Assembly: GCF_003382365.1 (NCBI RefSeq)
Contig: NZ_QTSU01000003.1
Location: forward strand, 1 to 64,000
Source: Lysobacter silvisoli
Lineage (GTDB): Bacteria; Pseudomonadota; Gammaproteobacteria; Xanthomonadales; Xanthomonadaceae
DNA length: 64,000 nucleotides
Direction of reading: 5' to 3'
Under the pieces are notes generated by a model. It was not told the DNA's origin. It worked only from the letters and a program-made list of their open reading frames with translations, and made no database searches. A program made the position numbers and the translations under genes. Shown here in pieces: positions 1 through 34,559 of this stretch (the stretch's first letter is position 1; the number at the start of each line of letters is the position of its first letter).

Positions 1-1386
1 GCTGCCGGCAGTGTTACCCGACGGCGTACCCGCCGTCTTGTCGACGGTCAGCGCAGGCGCCGGAGCGATCGGCGTGGCCGTGGTGTCCGGCGGGCTGGTG
101 GTGGTGCCGCCGCCCGGCGGCGTGCCGGTCACGGTGGCGCTGTTGTTCACCGTGCCCGCGTCGATCTCGGCCTGCGTGATGGTGTGCGTGCCGGTGCAGG
201 TGGTCGTCGCACCCGGAGCCAAGGTCGTGACCGGGCACACGGCCGCCGCATCCAGCTGCGCGTCGTTCACGGCGATGCCGGTGATCGTCACGTTGCCGGT
301 GTTGGTCACCAGGAAGGTGTAGGCGATGGTGCTGCCCGCAGTGTTACCCGACGGCGTACTCGCCGTCTTATCGACGGTCAGCGCCGGCGCCGACGTGATC
401 GGCGTGGTGGTCGTATCCGGCGGGCTGGTGGTGGTGCCGCCGGTCGGATCGGTGCCGCTGGCCGTCGCGCTGTTGTTCGAAGTGCCGGCGTCGACTTCCG
501 CCTGGGTGACGGTATGGGTGCCGGTGCAGGTGGTGCTCGCGCCTGGAGCCAACGTGGTCGCCGGACAGGTGGCGGCGGCATCCAGCTGCGCGTCGTTTAC
601 CGCGATACCGTCGATCGTCACGTTGCCGGTGTTGGTCACCAGGAAGGTGTAGGCAATGGTGCTGCCCGCGGCGTTGCCCGAAGGCGTGCCGGCGGTCTTG
701 TCGACAGTCAACGCCGGAGCAGGCGTGATCGGCGTCGTCGTGGTATCCGGCGGACTCGTGGTCGTGCCGCCACCCGGCGGCGTGCCGGTCACGGTGGCGC
801 TGTTGTTCACCGTGCCCGCGTCGATTTCGGCCTGGGTGATGGTGTGCGTACCGGTGCAGGTGGTGCTCGCACCCGGAGCCAGCGTGGTCGCAGGGCACAC
901 GGCCGCCGCGTCCAGCTGCGCGTCGTTGACCGCGATGCCGGTCACGGTCACGTTTCCGGTGTTGGTGACCAGGAAGGTGTAGGCAATGGTGCTGCCGGCG
1001 GTGTTACCCGACGGCGTGCCCGCCGTCTTGTCGACGGTCAGCGCAGGCGCCGGAACGATCGGCGTGGTCGTGGTGTCCGGCGGACTGGTGGTGGTGCCGC
1101 CGCCCGGCGGCGTGCCGGTCACAGTCGCACTGTTGTTAACCGTACCGGCGTCAACTTCCGCCTGAGTGATGGTGTGGGTGCCAGTGCAGGTAGTGCTCGC
1201 ACCCGGCGCCAGCGTGGTCACAGGACAGGTCGCGGCCGCGTCCAACTGCGCGTCATTCACGGCAATACCGGTGATCGTCACGTTGCCGGTGTTGGTCACC
1301 AGGAAGGTGTATGCGATGGTGCTGCCGGCGGTGTTGCCCGAAGGCGTACCCGCCGTCTTGTCGACGGTCAGCGCCGGCGCGGGCTG
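1..1386 (-). repeat. 330-bp in-frame tandem repeats (DUF7507-type modules)
   Basis: The coding sequence repeats with a 330-bp period; the same sequence recurs at about 326, 656, 986 and 1316. Each unit encodes one 110-residue module from AYTFLVTNTGNVT to the next VDKTAG. Units differ mostly at scattered, often synonymous positions. Confidence 0.85.
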
Positions 1387-2805
1387 GAAGGTGTTGGTGA
1401 TGGTGCAGGTCGCGGTCTGTCCGAGATCCAGCGCCAGACTGTTGCCCGAGAGGTCGCCTGCGGTGCAAACCCAGCTGCCCGCGGCGTAGTCGGCGGGACC
1501 ACCGCTTTCCGACAAGTTGTAGGTACCGCGCGAGACAGTGCGGTTGGTGATCGCCGCCTGACCTTCGGTGCCGGTGACGCCGGTGGTGGGGCCGGTCGCG
1601 GTCAACGTCCAGGCGGTGTCGACGGCGGTGCCGCCGTTGTCGTTGACCACCGTCTTCAGCAGGGTCAGCGTGGCAGCCTGATCGTCGTTGGTGATGGTGC
1701 ACGATGCGGTCTGGCCGTTGGCCAGGACCAGGCTGTTGCCGGTCAGCGTGCCTGCGGTGCAGGTCCAGGCGCCGGCGGTGTAGCCGGCCGGGCCGCCCGC
1801 TTCCGTCAGCGTGTAGGTGCCGGCCGAGACGGCACGGTTGGTGATCGCCGCCTGGCCCTCGGTGCCGGTGACGCCCGTGGTGGGGCCGGTCGCGGTCAAC
1901 GTCCACGCCGTGTCGATCGCGGTGCCGCCGTTGTCGTTGACCACCGTCTTCAGCAGGGTCAGCGTGGCGGCCTGATCGTCGTTGGTGATGGTGCACGATG
2001 CGGTCTGGCCGTTGGCCAGGACCAGGCTGTTGCCGGTCAGCGTGCCTGCGGTGCAGGTCCAGGCGCCGGCGGTGTAGCCGGCCGGGCCGCCCGCTTCCGT
2101 CAGCGTGTAGGTGCCGGCCGAGACGGCACGGTTGGTGATCGCCGCCTGGCCCTCGGTGCCGGTGACGCCCGTGGTGGGGCCGGTCGCGGTCAACGTCCAG
2201 GCGGTGTCGACGGCGGTGCCGCCGTTGTCGTTGACCACTGTCTTCAGCAGGGTCAGCGTAGCGGCCTGGTCGTCGTTGGTGATGGTGCAGGTGGCGACGT
2301 CGCCCGCGGCCAGGGTCAGGCTGTTGCCGACCACCGCGGCGCCGCCGTTGACCACGCAGCTGTAATTCGAAGCGGTGTAGCCCGCCGGCCCGCCGCTCTC
2401 GCTGAGGGTGTAGGTGCCGACCGGCACCGAAGCATTGGTGATGGCCGCGGCGCCCTCGGTGCCGCTGATGGTGGCCGGGCCGGTTGCGGTCAAGGTCCAG
2501 GCGGTGTCGAGGGCGGTGCCGCCGTTGTCGTTGGCGACGGTCTTGAGCAGGGTCAGGCGCGGCTGGATGGGATCGCTGTCGATCGCGGTGCAGACGCCGG
2601 TGGTGGCGTTGTAATTAGCCGCACCGTTGGTGGAGGTGCAGGTGGTGCCGGTGTTCTGCACGCCCGTCGGCGGCGTCACCGTGGTGGTGTTCACCGCGTT
2701 TTGAGCCGTGGCCGGCAGCGCGATCGCTCCCAGGGCCAGCAACGCGAAGGTCAGGCATAGGCGGCGACCGGCCGAAGCCAGCGTGAGTCGGATGTCTGCA
2801 GCCAC
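1..2805 (-). CDS. Large secreted tandem-repeat (prealbumin-like / DUF7507-type) surface protein, 3' end outside window
   Basis: The frame stays open from a GTG at 2805 to the window edge. AGGGGA lies 9 nt before the GTG. The product starts with a signal peptide (hydrophobic run ending ALPATAQN) and a short Cys/Thr/Asn-rich stretch. Four prealbumin/SpaA-like modules of 98-100 residues follow, each with TLLKTVVNDNGGTA, AGTYTLTEAGGPAGYT and CTITNDDQ. Then come at least four 110-residue DUF11/DUF7507-like modules with AYTFLVTNTGNVT and LTVDKTAGTPSGNTAGS. Such beta-sandwich arrays usually form extracellular stalks or adhesins; that role here is inference. The C terminus, with any sorting or anchoring domain, is not visible. 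Large open frames on the other strand are high-GC shadows. Confidence 0.85.
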   Translation of the reverse strand, partial: MAADIRLTLASAGRRLCLTFALLALGAIALPATAQNAVNTTTVTPPTGVQNTGTTCTSTNGAANYNATTGVCTAIDSDPIQPRLTLLKTVANDNGGTALDTAWTLTATGPATISGTEGAAAITNASVPVGTYTLSESGGPAGYTASNYSCVVNGGAAVVGNSLTLAAGDVATCTITNDDQAATLTLLKTVVNDNGGTAVDTAWTLTATGPTTGVTGTEGQAAITNRAVSAGTYTLTEAGGPAGYTAGAWTCTAGTLTGNSLVLANGQTASCTITNDDQAATLTLLKTVVNDNGGTAIDTAWTLTATGPTTGVTGTEGQAAITNRAVSAGTYTLTEAGGPAGYTAGAWTCTAGTLTGNSLVLANGQTASCTITNDDQAATLTLLKTVVNDNGGTAVDTAWTLTATGPTTGVTGTEGQAAITNRTVSRGTYNLSESGGPADYAAGSWVCTAGDLSGNSLALDLGQTATCTITNTFQPAPALTVDKTAGTPSGNTAGSTIAYTFLVTNTGNVTITGIAVNDAQLDAAATCPVTTLAPGASTTCTGTHTITQAEVDAGTVNNSATVTGTPPGGGTTTSPPDTTTTPIVPAPALTVDKTAGTPSGNTAGSTIAYTFLVTNTGNVTVTGIAVNDAQLDAAAVCPATTLAPGASTTCTGTHTITQAEIDAGTVNNSATVTGTPPGGGTTTSPPDTTTTPITPAPALTVDKTAGTPSGNAAGSTIAYTFLVTNTGNVTIDGIAVNDAQLDAAATCPATTLAPGASTTCTGTHTVTQAEVDAGTSNNSATASGTDPTGGTTTSPPDTTTTPITSAPALTVDKTASTPSGNTAGSTIAYTFLVTNTGNVTITGIAVNDAQLDAAAVCPVTTLAPGATTTCTGTHTITQAEIDAGTVNNSATVTGTPPGGGTTTSPPDTTATPIAPAPALTVDKTAGTPSGNTAGS
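1387..2580 (-). repeat. 294-300-bp in-frame tandem repeats (prealbumin-like modules)
   Basis: Equivalent positions fall at 1627, 1921, 2215 and 2515, giving periods of 294, 294 and 300 bp. The two central units (about 1681-1974 and 1975-2268) are almost identical in DNA, which suggests recent duplication or gene conversion. Confidence 0.85.
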
Positions 2806-30939: not shown

Positions 30940-31416
30940 TCAGCTACCGCGCTTCAACAGCGTGATATGCCCATTGGTCTCCAGCATCGCCAGCGCGATG
31001 TGGTCGACGTCGGCGCAATCGTTCTCGCGCATGGCCTTGTGGAAATCGGCGCGGCTGACCAGTTCGCGGCGCAGCACTTCGTGGAATACATGGCCATCGC
31101 GCGCCAGCACCACCGGCACGCCTTCCAGCGCGCGTTCGATGCGGTCGTTGCGCGCGGTCACGAAACCGATGCCCCAGTTCAACGCCATCAGCGTGCCGGC
31201 CAGCAGCAGGCCGCCGCCGATGGAGGTGTCGGTGCCCAGCAACGCGTTCTGCACCGCGTTGCCCAGCAGCACGATCAGCAGCATGTCGAAGGAGGTGAAC
31301 TGGCCCATGGTGCGCTTGCCCGACACCCGGATCATCGCCAGCAGCACGAAATACACCACGCAGGCGCGCAGCACGTACTGCCACCAGGGCATGGACAGGT
31401 CGAAGGCCTCGGACAT
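30940..31416 (-). CDS. DUF421 (YetF-like) membrane protein
   Basis: 158 residues with three N-terminal membrane segments and a cytoplasmic domain. RVSGKRTMGQFTSFDMLLIVLLGNAVQNALL is the DUF421 signature, followed by RIERALEGVPVVLARDG. Function of the family is poorly known. The ATG at 31416 follows GGAG by 6 nt; the longer open frame upstream runs through the polA-downstream region and is not coding. It ends in the REP cluster. Confidence 0.88.
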   Translation of the reverse strand: MSEAFDLSMPWWQYVLRACVVYFVLLAMIRVSGKRTMGQFTSFDMLLIVLLGNAVQNALLGTDTSIGGGLLLAGTLMALNWGIGFVTARNDRIERALEGVPVVLARDGHVFHEVLRRELVSRADFHKAMRENDCADVDHIALAMLETNGHITLLKRGS

Positions 31417-31543
31417 CGCACGCTCCGCTGGTTGGCGGCCCGGTGCCGCGCCGGCGATTGTCCAACGCCGCCCCGCCACCGCGCACGCGCCGTCGCGATG
31501 CCCATGGCGCGGCAGAAACTCCGAAGTAAATATCGCGGGCAAT

Positions 31544-31578
31544 AAAAAGCCCCGCTGGCAGGGGGGGCCGGCGGGGCT
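31544..31578 (-). terminator. Rho-independent terminator of the sX13-like RNA
   Basis: Stem AGCCCCGC / GCGGGGCT (31578-31571 and 31555-31548 on the minus strand), C-rich loop, then five T (31548-31544) and ATT. Confidence 0.85.
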
Positions 31579-31665
31579 GGGGAGCGGGACCTGGGGAGGG
31601 GCCTTCGCTCCGGGGATCACTCCAGGGGAGGGAGAGATCGGCGACAGACGTTGCATCTGTCGCGA
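31544..31665 (-). ncRNA. sX13-like small RNA downstream of polA
   Basis: The 370-base gap after polA holds a compact structured segment on the minus strand. In order: an 8-bp hairpin GCGACAGA/TCTGTCGC (31663-31641); C-rich single-stranded stretches; a stem GGAGCG/CGCTCC (31611-31606 / 31586-31581) enclosing CCTCCCCAGG; and an intrinsic terminator. TATAGG at 31671-31666 could be a -10 box; no good -35 is seen. Xanthomonas sX13, as I recall, is encoded just after polA and exposes CCCC loops that pair with G-rich mRNA leaders, so position and composition both fit. The exact 5' end is uncertain. Confidence 0.6.
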
Positions 31666-31787
31666 CCTATATGACCACCCTGCACATGGATAGTTCGTGA
31701 AGATCGAAGTTAATAAATTGTTGGATTCAGGACCGATTCATTCTGCCAAATCCAGCAATCACAAGCATTTACGATTATTAATGAAAA

Positions 31788-34559
31788 TTAATGCGCCTGG
31801 TCCCAATTGTCGCCGACGCCGCTGTCGACGACCAGCGGTACCCGCAGCTCTGCCGCGGCCGACATACGGTCGGTGACCTGCGCCAGCAGGGTGTCGACGA
31901 AGCCGGCGTCGACCTCGAAGACCAGTTCGTCGTGGACCTGCAGGATCATCTTGGCGCGCTCGGCATGGCCGGCCAGCCAGGCGTCGATGGAGATCATCGC
32001 CCGCTTGATGATGTCGGCCGCGGTGCCCTGCATGGGCGCGTTGATCGCCGCGCGCTCGGCGCCCGCGCGCAGGCCCTGGTTGGAGGCCTTGATGTTGTCC
32101 AGGTACAGGCGGCGGCCGAACACGGTTTCCACGTAGCCCTTGTCGCGCGCGTCCTGGCGGGTGCGCTCCATGAAGTCGCGCACGCCCGGGTAGCGGCTGA
32201 AGTACAGGGCGATGTAATCCTGCGCCTCGCCACGGCCGATGCCGAGCTGGCGGGCCAGGCCGAATGCGCTCATGCCGTACATCAGGCCGAAGTTGATCGC
32301 CTTGGCCGCGCGGCGCTCGTTGCCCTCGACCTGGTCGATGGCCTTGCCGAACACCTCGGCGGCGGTGGCGCGGTGGATGTCGGCGCCGGAGGCGAACGCG
32401 CGCAGCAGGCCTTCGTCCTCGGACAGGTGGGCCATGATCCGCAGCTCGATCTGCGAGTAGTCGCAGGCCACCAGCTTGCGCCCGGCCGGAGCGACGAAGG
32501 CGCGGCGGATGCGGCGGCCGTCGTCGGTGCGGATCGGGATGTTCTGCAGGTTGGGGTCGCTGGAGGCGAGCCGGCCGGTGGCCGCGCCGGCCTGGTGGTA
32601 ACTGGTGTGCACGCGGCCGGTGTCGGGATTGACGATCTCCGACAGCTTGTCGGTGTAGGTGCTGCGCAGCTTGGCCAGGCCGCGGTATTCCAGGATCACC
32701 CGCGGCAGCTCGTGCTGGTCGGCGATGGCCTCCAGCGCCTCTTCGTTGGTGCTGGGCTGGCCGGTGGGCGTCTTGATCAGCGCCGGCAGCTTGAGTTCGT
32801 CGAACAGCAGCGCCTGCAGCTGCTTGGGCGAGTCCAGGTTGAAGGTGCGGCCGGCCAGCTCGGTGGCCTGCTGCTGCGCGGCCAGCATGCGCTTGGCCAG
32901 GTCCTGCGACTGCCGGCGCAGCTCATCGGCGTCGATCATCACGCCGTTGGCCTCGACCCGCGCCAGCACCGGCACCAGCGGCATTTCGATCTCGCGGTAC
33001 ACGCGCTCCAGCGCCGGCTCGGCGGCCAGCCGGGCGCCCAGCACGCGGTGCAGGCGCAGGGTCACGTCGGCGTCCTCGGCGGCGTAGCGGGTGGCGTCGT
33101 CCAGCGCCACCTGCGAGAACGAAATCGCCTTGGCGCCCTTGCCGGTCACGTCGGCGTACTTGACGGTGTCGTAGCCGAGGTAGCGCTTGGCCAGCGAGTC
33201 CATGTCGTGGCGGCTGGCGGTGGCGTTGTAGACGAAGCTCTCCAGCATGGTGTCGTCGGCGTAGCCGTCCACCTCCACGCCGCAGCGGCGCAGCACGTGC
33301 AGGTCGTACTTGCCGTGCTGGCCGAGCTTGCGCCGCGCCGGGTCGGCGAACACCGGGCGCAACGCGGCCAGCACCGTCTCGCGGTCCAGTTGCGCCGGCG
33401 CGCCGGGGTAATCGTGGCCCAGCGGCAGGTACCAGGCGCGGCCGGGCTCGATGGCGAAGCTCAGACCGACCAGGTTGGCGCGCATGGGGTCCAGCGAATC
33501 GGTTTCGCTGTCGAAGGCGAACTCCTCGGCCGCCGACAGCGCCGCGACCAGCGCGTCCAGCTGCGGCTGGGTCAGCACGGTCTCGTACTCGCCCTTGGCC
33601 GACAGTGCGGCGTCCGGGGCCTCGGCCGGCGCCGAGGAGCGGGCGTGGCCGGCCGCGGTCGCGCGCAGGCCGGCTCGGTCGGAGGCGGCGTCCAGCTCGG
33701 CCGACGCCGCCGCGCCGCCTTCCAGCTCGCGCAACGCCTGCTTGAAGCCATAGCGTGCGTACAGGCCGCGCAGCGATTCGGCGTGGCGCTCGCGCAAGGC
33801 CAGGTCGGTGGGGCCCTTGTCCAGCGCCACGTCGGTCTTGATCGTGGCCAGCTGGCGGTTCAGCGGCAGGCGCGGCAGCGCGGCGCGCAGGTTGTCGCCG
33901 ATCTTGCCCTTGATCTGCGCGGCGTTGGCGATCACCCCGTCCAGGCTGTCGTACTCGGCCAGCCACTTGGCCGCGGTCTTGGGCCCGCACTTCTCCACGC
34001 CGGGAATGTTGTCGACGCTGTCGCCCATCAGCGAGAGCAGGTCGATGACCTGGTTGGGGCGCACGCCGAACTTGGCGAACACGCTCTCGTCGCTGTCCAT
34101 GCGGCTGCCGCTCATGGTGTTGACCAGGGCCACGTGCGGGCGCACCAGCTGGGCGAAGTCCTTGTCGCCGGTGGAAATGGTCACGTCGATGCCGTCGGCG
34201 GCCGCGCTCAGGGCCAGGGTGCCGATCACGTCGTCGGCTTCCACGCCCTCGATGCGCAGGATCGGAATGCCCAGCGCCTCGACGATCTCGCACATCGGCA
34301 GCACCTGCGCGCGCAGGTCGTCGGGCATGGGCGGGCGGTTGGCCTTGTACTGCGGGTCCAGGTCGTCGCGGAAGGTCTTGCCGGGCGCGTCGACCACGAA
34401 GGCCACGTAGTCCGGGCGTTCGTTCAAGGTCGCGCGCAGCATGTTGACCACGCCGAACAGAGCGCCGGTGGGCTCGCCGGCGTCGTTGCTCAGCGGCGGC
34501 AGCGCATGGAAGGCGCGGTAGAGGTAGCTGGAACCATCGATCAGGACGAGTCGTTTCAT
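31788..34559 (-). CDS. polA: DNA polymerase I
   Basis: 923 residues with all three domains: 5'-3' exonuclease (1 to about 290, MKRLVLIDGSSYLYRAFHALP, ISTGDKDFAQLV), 3'-5' proofreading exonuclease (about 320-510, FDSETDSLDPMRANLVGLSF) and polymerase (about 530-923, VACDYSQIELRIMAHLSEDEGL and VHDELVFEV). It fills gaps in repair and removes RNA primers. A non-conserved linker (about 285-320, Ala/Ser-rich) separates the first two domains. It is divergent from the DUF2782 lipoprotein gene, a common neighbour. Confidence 0.98.
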   Translation of the reverse strand: MKRLVLIDGSSYLYRAFHALPPLSNDAGEPTGALFGVVNMLRATLNERPDYVAFVVDAPGKTFRDDLDPQYKANRPPMPDDLRAQVLPMCEIVEALGIPILRIEGVEADDVIGTLALSAAADGIDVTISTGDKDFAQLVRPHVALVNTMSGSRMDSDESVFAKFGVRPNQVIDLLSLMGDSVDNIPGVEKCGPKTAAKWLAEYDSLDGVIANAAQIKGKIGDNLRAALPRLPLNRQLATIKTDVALDKGPTDLALRERHAESLRGLYARYGFKQALRELEGGAAASAELDAASDRAGLRATAAGHARSSAPAEAPDAALSAKGEYETVLTQPQLDALVAALSAAEEFAFDSETDSLDPMRANLVGLSFAIEPGRAWYLPLGHDYPGAPAQLDRETVLAALRPVFADPARRKLGQHGKYDLHVLRRCGVEVDGYADDTMLESFVYNATASRHDMDSLAKRYLGYDTVKYADVTGKGAKAISFSQVALDDATRYAAEDADVTLRLHRVLGARLAAEPALERVYREIEMPLVPVLARVEANGVMIDADELRRQSQDLAKRMLAAQQQATELAGRTFNLDSPKQLQALLFDELKLPALIKTPTGQPSTNEEALEAIADQHELPRVILEYRGLAKLRSTYTDKLSEIVNPDTGRVHTSYHQAGAATGRLASSDPNLQNIPIRTDDGRRIRRAFVAPAGRKLVACDYSQIELRIMAHLSEDEGLLRAFASGADIHRATAAEVFGKAIDQVEGNERRAAKAINFGLMYGMSAFGLARQLGIGRGEAQDYIALYFSRYPGVRDFMERTRQDARDKGYVETVFGRRLYLDNIKASNQGLRAGAERAAINAPMQGTAADIIKRAMISIDAWLAGHAERAKMILQVHDELVFEVDAGFVDTLLAQVTDRMSAAAELRVPLVVDSGVGDNWDQAH

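Follow-up and report, generated by a model that had tools for sequence, protein, structure and literature searches.

The region downstream of polA in Lysobacter silvisoli raises a question in three parts: does it encode a regulatory RNA, what drives the synthesis of such an RNA, and upon which messengers does it act? We considered this question in a stretch of 64,000 nucleotides (contig NZ_QTSU01000003.1, positions 1 to 64,000), to which we refer as a whole as the window. A preliminary description, made from the letters alone, had placed at 31544-31665 a compact RNA-like segment with hairpins, C-rich loops and a strong terminator, and had proposed that it is sX13, a small RNA known from Xanthomonas.

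An sX13 RNA downstream of polA

A scan against Rfam (cmscan) yielded a full-length match to RF02232 (sX13) on the minus strand at 31652-31543, which covers model positions 1-115 and scores 71.7 bits (E = 2.1e-11), the curated gathering threshold being 50 bits. The 4.5-Mb genome holds a single copy, with no second RF02232 match. The RNA begins some 135 nt past the end of polA and runs in the same direction. The features of the locus are the following:

31788..34559, minus strand: polA, which encodes DNA polymerase I and is conserved as the upstream neighbour (Pfam DNA_pol_A, 527 bits)
31543..31652, minus strand: sX13 small RNA as delimited by Rfam RF02232 (cmscan), 110 nt here
31615..31639, minus strand: hairpin 1, loop CUCCCCU at 31630-31624 (from the fold; a C-rich loop 1 is found in nearly all homologues)
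31581..31611, minus strand: hairpin 2, loop CCUCCCCA at 31599-31592 (from the fold, covariation and pairing with hfq)
31543..31578, minus strand: hairpin 3, the intrinsic terminator, loop CCCCCCU at 31566-31560, followed by a U-run (from the fold and a terminator scan)
30940..31416, minus strand: DUF421/YetF family membrane-protein gene, downstream of sX13 (Pfam PF04239, 43.3 bits, cut-off 23.6)

The minus strand from 31665 to 31540 folds into four hairpins with an energy of -62.7 kcal/mol (z = -7.1 versus dinucleotide shuffles), which none of 200 such shuffles matched. Three of the stems are stable and carry C-rich (4C/5C) apical loops. In a wider set of homologues, 93% and 85% of cells are paired in the two helices of hairpin 2, and 97% in hairpin 3; the latter leads into the U-run and is the sole terminator-like site that the scan detected in 31400-31830. 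As the hairpins are near-palindromic, the plus strand of the segment folds as well; the RF02232 match, the U-run terminator and polA are all on the minus strand, which is the functional one. From its sequence, the RNA of this locus is almost certainly the sX13 of Lysobacter.

The preliminary description is thus borne out on several counts. The fold, its z-score and the U-run hairpin agree with the RNA-like segment that it saw; the curated model and synteny agree with the identity and the polA-downstream site that it proposed; and the covariance comparison with sX13 that it had put forward as a check gave a full-model match above the cut-off. Its limits nearly coincide with those of our extended model R1 (31543-31665), because they include a 5' hairpin that Rfam omits. 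It had named no strand, which we assign here as minus. It had also held the presence of the RNA in a Lysobacter-like genome to be worth documenting: the RNA is present, but this is unremarkable, since it is general in Lysobacter, an exact 22-mer of the sX13 core occurring in 43 stretches, most of them from this genus. Among 59 other genomes of the same genus or family, all but three (G033, G052 and G059) contain an RF02232 match (E <= 0.001), and in nearly all family loci examined in full polA stands on the same strand, 106-360 nt upstream, the exceptions being the two-copy genomes G021 and G023 and a few distant ones. Judged by sequence, the window RNA adds one more ordinary member to a family already described; the result itself amounts to ordinary annotation, and its surroundings matter more.

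Duplicated copies, in tandem or on separate contigs, were observed at L034 (genome G040), L247/L259 (G367), L011 and L031 (G021), and L032 and L033 (G023). Some of them stand away from polA, and they offer a starting point to study division of labour.

A covarying hairpin at the 5' end

The annotated 5' end of the RNA, position 1 of the Rfam model (31652), falls in the middle of a palindrome, GCGACAGATG-CAA-CGTCTGTCGC, that is, in the loop of a hairpin that we term P0:

31641..31663, minus strand: P0, a 10-bp 5' hairpin, GCGACAGAUG-CAA-CGUCUGUCGC (from the fold and covariation)
31543..31663, minus strand: predicted primary transcript with the 5' hairpin (start derived from promoter spacing and the end of the stem; model R1 covers 31543-31665)

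We assessed P0 on 35 distinct homologues anchored without gaps on the annotated 5' base. Over its ten pairs, 92.6% of cells are paired and both-side changes occur in nine of the ten, values that 0 of 500 shuffles reached; once the partner is shifted by one to three columns, only 22-52% of cells remain paired. In 65 distinct homologues, whose alignment is model-fitted and leans towards the model, 92.2% of cells are paired and all nine pairs considered (9/9) show both-side changes. The arms vary between AU, GC, CG and UA (columns 6-8) while a GCAA-type loop stays, a pattern that speaks for an RNA hairpin over a protein-binding site. The 5' region of sX13 would be unpaired if the RNA started at 31652, and paired in P0 if it started near 31663; covariation favours the latter. 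As the annotated end lies in the loop of a covarying hairpin, the primary RNA probably starts near 31663, with P0 included.

The palindrome could also be read as a DNA operator for a transcription factor at the start site, with transcription beginning at 31652. A symmetric operator would likewise yield paired arms, and the published Xanthomonas RNA starts at the equivalent base (RF02232 position 1; 115 nt, PMC3771888). However, the arms show all Watson-Crick pair types and yet stay paired, which one DNA-binding protein would not tolerate; the conserved GCAA loop is asymmetric; P0 persists in far relatives; and a start at 31652 is without a -10 element at the right distance, whereas the sigma-E-type site described below places the predicted start at the stem's foot. 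We regard an operator as unlikely.

Our preferred reading, an RNA that begins with P0, is in conflict with one published observation if the mature RNA keeps the hairpin: sX13 of Xanthomonas was described as a 115-nt RNA with an unstructured 5' region (PMC3771888). An unstructured end is what would be expected if the probed RNA held only the right arm of P0. The published Xanthomonas 5' end may correspond to a cut in the P0 loop, to a different or second start, or to a mapping artefact; the published end and structure may thus be incomplete. Since a Xanthomonas sX13 with a 14-nt 5' deletion remained active (PMC3771888), P0 would be dispensable for action on targets. That it protects the 5' end is our guess.

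A promoter of the sigma-E type

Across homologues, a second conserved block is found upstream of P0. At this place the window contains a -35/-10 pair of the sigma-E type, at correct spacing before the predicted start, which coincides with the foot of P0:

31691..31697, minus strand: sigma-E-type -35 element CGAACTA (rpoE-promoter matrix; same place in most homologues)
31670..31675, minus strand: sigma-E-type -10 element GTCATA, 15 nt after the -35 element

A score such as that of the window site, CGAACTA-N15-GTCATA (31697-31670), arises by chance in 0.7% of shuffled regions, a figure that holds for this locus alone, and the -35 element differs from the GAACTT core of rpoE promoters by one mismatch. 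A loose pattern, GAACTT-N15-17-TCNNA, is not enriched genome-wide (30 occurrences vs 26 in a reversed control). As single matches to a pattern no commoner than its control prove nothing, we used instead a fixed position, a matrix derived from rpoE promoters, and recurrence across species.

The rpoE genes were identified by NCBIfam TIGR02939, all far above the cut-off. Upstream of 28 of 30 such genes in relatives, including that of the window genome, we found xGAACTT-N15/16-GTC; the rpoE promoter site of the window genome itself is GAACTTTCGCCCACCAGGGCTGTCCCA, 45 nt before the RpoE match. A sigma-E matrix made of 13 rpoE promoters, one per genus and none from an sX13 locus, was run on 51 sX13 upstream regions, and in 40 of them the best site has a -10 element that ends -19 to -14 from the annotated start, mostly at -17. 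In the Xanthomonas-like loci L002, L004, L005 and L007 the site is degenerate, and sigma-E control can therefore not be asserted for the best-studied member of the family. On this evidence a sigma-E promoter is likely for sX13 of Lysobacter and of most other branches, and sigma-E control is doubtful in Xanthomonas.

Transcription from a housekeeping sigma-70 promoter, with a constitutive RNA and an incidental likeness to sigma-E sites, would fit the abundance of sX13 in unstressed Xanthomonas (PMC3771888) and the degenerate motif of the Xanthomonas-like loci, and CATATA resembles a -10 hexamer. Yet our scan detected no sigma-70-like site for sX13, and the -35 is unfit in spacing and sequence: GAACTA, the hexamer found 17 nt upstream of CATATA, has one match to TTGACA. 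Moreover, a sigma-E-like site precedes the RNA in 26 of 35 held-out relatives (see below), against 0.26 expected. Constitutive sigma-70 transcription thus appears unlikely to us. In Xanthomonas, sX13 becomes more abundant at 37 C, under high salt and in minimal medium (PMC3771888); a sigma-E-type promoter would offer a testable reason for the increase with heat and salt, and a link to the envelope-stress response.

The promoter block also bears on whether the element is a mere polA terminator or a processed 3' UTR devoid of regulatory role. Its place directly after polA and its strong terminator would suit such an origin, but the RNA has a conserved promoter block of its own, its four hairpins and loops are conserved whereas the flanks are variable, some copies stand away from polA, and tandem copies exist. 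We find this explanation hardly credible.

Separately, the sigma-E site before rpoE is near-invariant across the family (L094 1430-1460, L099-L127), as in autoregulation, and is usable as a clade-specific sigma-E matrix.

hfq and other G-rich ribosome sites

In Xanthomonas, loop and GGGG mutants established that repression by sX13 requires both its C-rich loops and G-rich mRNA motifs; the motif shown to be targeted is GGGG close to the start codon, not GGAGG, and hfq is repressed via loop 2 (PMC3771888). Regulation did not return in complementary double mutants (PMC3771888), which leaves direct pairing short of formal proof in that organism too.

The ribosome site of hfq in the window genome is AGCUGGGGAACUACUGAUG, whose CUGGGGA is a perfect 7-nt complement of UCCCCAG in loop 2. 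The duplex of loop 2 with hfq has an energy of -18.2 kcal/mol, equalled by 0.1% of shuffles (1 in 1000), and TGGGG occurs at 0 of 63 sampled ribosome sites. These sequence features make hfq the best-supported predicted target of sX13 in the window genome. The gene also carries AAGGGG at codons 3-4; we discarded this AAGGGGC as a strong target sign, since it encodes a conserved Lys-Gly and is weak evidence, the UGGGGA of the ribosome site being better. The E. coli hfq presumably uses the same codons at Lys-Gly. Of 40 RF02232-positive genomes, 22 have GGGG in the ribosome region of hfq, vs 0 of 31 others, which use GGAG, a contrast confounded by ancestry and by divergent copies (detected with the wider model) in several of the 'negative' genomes. 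The site reads UGGGGA in Lysobacter and many relatives and GGAG elsewhere (L098, L128-L197), while the protein is unchanged.

GGGG was found at 3 of 63 ribosome sites sampled at unambiguous starts, no more than at control positions; lacking enrichment, a large GGGG regulon is unsupported by this test, which has a small sample. GGAG is enriched at the sampled sites (27% of 63) and loop 2 contains CCUCC, so that ordinary Shine-Dalgarno sites are possible targets. The CCUCC of loop 2 makes pairing with GGAG or GGAGG possible, as the preliminary description had suggested for the C-rich loops. Its bolder idea of a global translational regulator fares less evenly: the C-loops and CCUCC are in place, but a global role in Lysobacter would be an extrapolation, with GGGG at only 3/63 sites.

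Proposed mode of action

We consider it probable that Lysobacter sX13 is a trans-acting antisense regulator, transcribed by RpoE, whose C-loops act on G-rich start regions and include hfq among their targets. Envelope or heat stress would activate RpoE and lead to transcription of sX13 from about 31663; P0 would protect or tune the 5' end; the single-stranded loops UCCCC(A/U) would prevent translation by pairing with G-rich stretches located at start codons or close to them, as has been demonstrated in Xanthomonas; and loop 2 would cover the CUGGGGA of the hfq ribosome site. Membership in sX13, the polA site, three C-loops on covarying stems, the terminator, the 5' hairpin and a sigma-E-like promoter at a fixed place are all established at the sequence level. 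Stress induction, 5'-end protection and the blocking of mRNAs by the loops are what we infer for Lysobacter, antisense action of the C-loops being likely by analogy with the family.

As the three C-rich loops are nearly identical, sX13 might instead chiefly titrate or sequester the ribosome, Hfq or another binder of C-rich RNA; Schmidtke et al. allow that some unknown factor may act at G-rich motifs, and regulation was not regained in their compensatory mutants (PMC3771888). In Xanthomonas, however, single loops differ in target specificity, the GGGG of the mRNA is required, and sX13 acts without Hfq (PMC3771888). Titration as the main role is unlikely in our view.

Relatives across the Gammaproteobacteria

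Within the order, model R1, a covariance model of 32 homologues that includes P0, has matches in 139 of 250 genomes; a dozen genomes of other orders also match it. Many of the matches stand downstream of polA and show a -35 element of the GGAACTT type. A second model, R2, matches 139 of 369 genomes of the class at E <= 0.001; the E-values of both models are approximate, and the count of members is not exact. As a held-out check, we took 35 class matches not used in building R2, polA and the promoter being features outside the model. Same-strand polA is directly upstream in 23 of the 35, a sigma-E-like site just upstream in 26 (0.26 expected from shuffles), and the four-hairpin fold in all 35. 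Among 13 weak R2 matches outside the class (E 1e-6 to 1e-3), none has polA or a sigma-E site and four have four hairpins; we rejected them as relatives. Exactly four hairpins, with C-rich loops at positions 1-3, are found in 59 of the 65 distinct homologues. Synteny and promoter, as independent evidence, thus lend good support to a class-wide gammaproteobacterial family beside polA.

The 2013 study of sX13 asked whether polA loci elsewhere encode small RNAs that act like it (PMC3771888). Our results suggest that many gammaproteobacterial orders encode such an RNA at polA, with a four-hairpin plan and a sigma-E-type promoter; the 5' hairpin, the promoter and these relatives would go beyond the published picture. 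We lean towards a broader reading, in which sX13 represents, in the Xanthomonadaceae, a small RNA family that spans the class, is adjacent to polA and driven by sigma-E, and combines three C-rich loops with a 5' hairpin as a cap. Such a family could be the equal of MicA and RybB in enterics, and of ErsA in Pseudomonas, as an envelope-stress regulator that covers G-rich translation starts, with hfq as a recurrent target. Gains include a better covariance model and, in hfq, a concrete candidate target that is conserved.

Comparison with known small RNAs

The window RNA shares with sX13 of Xanthomonas campestris pv. vesicatoria (RF02232; PMC3771888) the full-length model, the polA-downstream site, the three C-loop stems and the terminator. 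It differs by its 5' hairpin and sigma-E-type promoter, whereas for the published RNA the 5' end is described as unstructured and no sigma factor is named; the 2013 paper does not mention Lysobacter (PMC3771888).

Other small RNAs are adjacent to polA. ErsA of Pseudomonas aeruginosa lies at polA-engB, measures 132 nt and strictly depends on sigma-22 (AlgT/U), the counterpart of sigma-E (PMC7565897, PMC8575079). Unlike sX13, it has two stem-loops split by a U-rich single strand, and acts on anr in an Hfq-dependent manner. Its position and sigma dependence, as given in these papers, make ErsA the obvious candidate for a counterpart of sX13. The alpha-r7 RNAs carry C-rich tips on their three stem-loops, and Spot 42 requires Hfq, unlike sX13; neither shows sequence similarity to sX13 (PMC3771888).

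Against Rfam, distant polA-linked relatives of the window RNA gave sub-threshold matches only. The divergent relative L250 matches ar7 at 28.4 bits (cut-off 60), and others match anti-hemB (RF02837) and ar14 (RF02344), apparently because of repeated C-rich hairpin loops; we claim no membership in these two families, all matches being below the curated cut-offs.

Copy number and architecture also vary. In two genomes, both of the same gammaproteobacterial family, polA is followed by four tandem sX13-like copies (L241, L253 and L254, G465:C33:13150-13904; and G572:C8:6559-7494), which diverge in sequence and keep their C-rich loops. A further and more divergent copy is present in many genomes of family f12, such as those of L230 (G122) and L232 (G282); both of the further copies examined in full lie away from polA, and their C-rich loop 1 is weaker. 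Finally, at L282 (G766; 1380-1700, minus strand) polA is followed by a shorter RNA. It has a sigma-E-like site, GTGGAACTGTTCC...TCTCTAA, and just two C-rich hairpins, whose loops contain CCCCC, and is possibly an intermediate towards ErsA-like forms.
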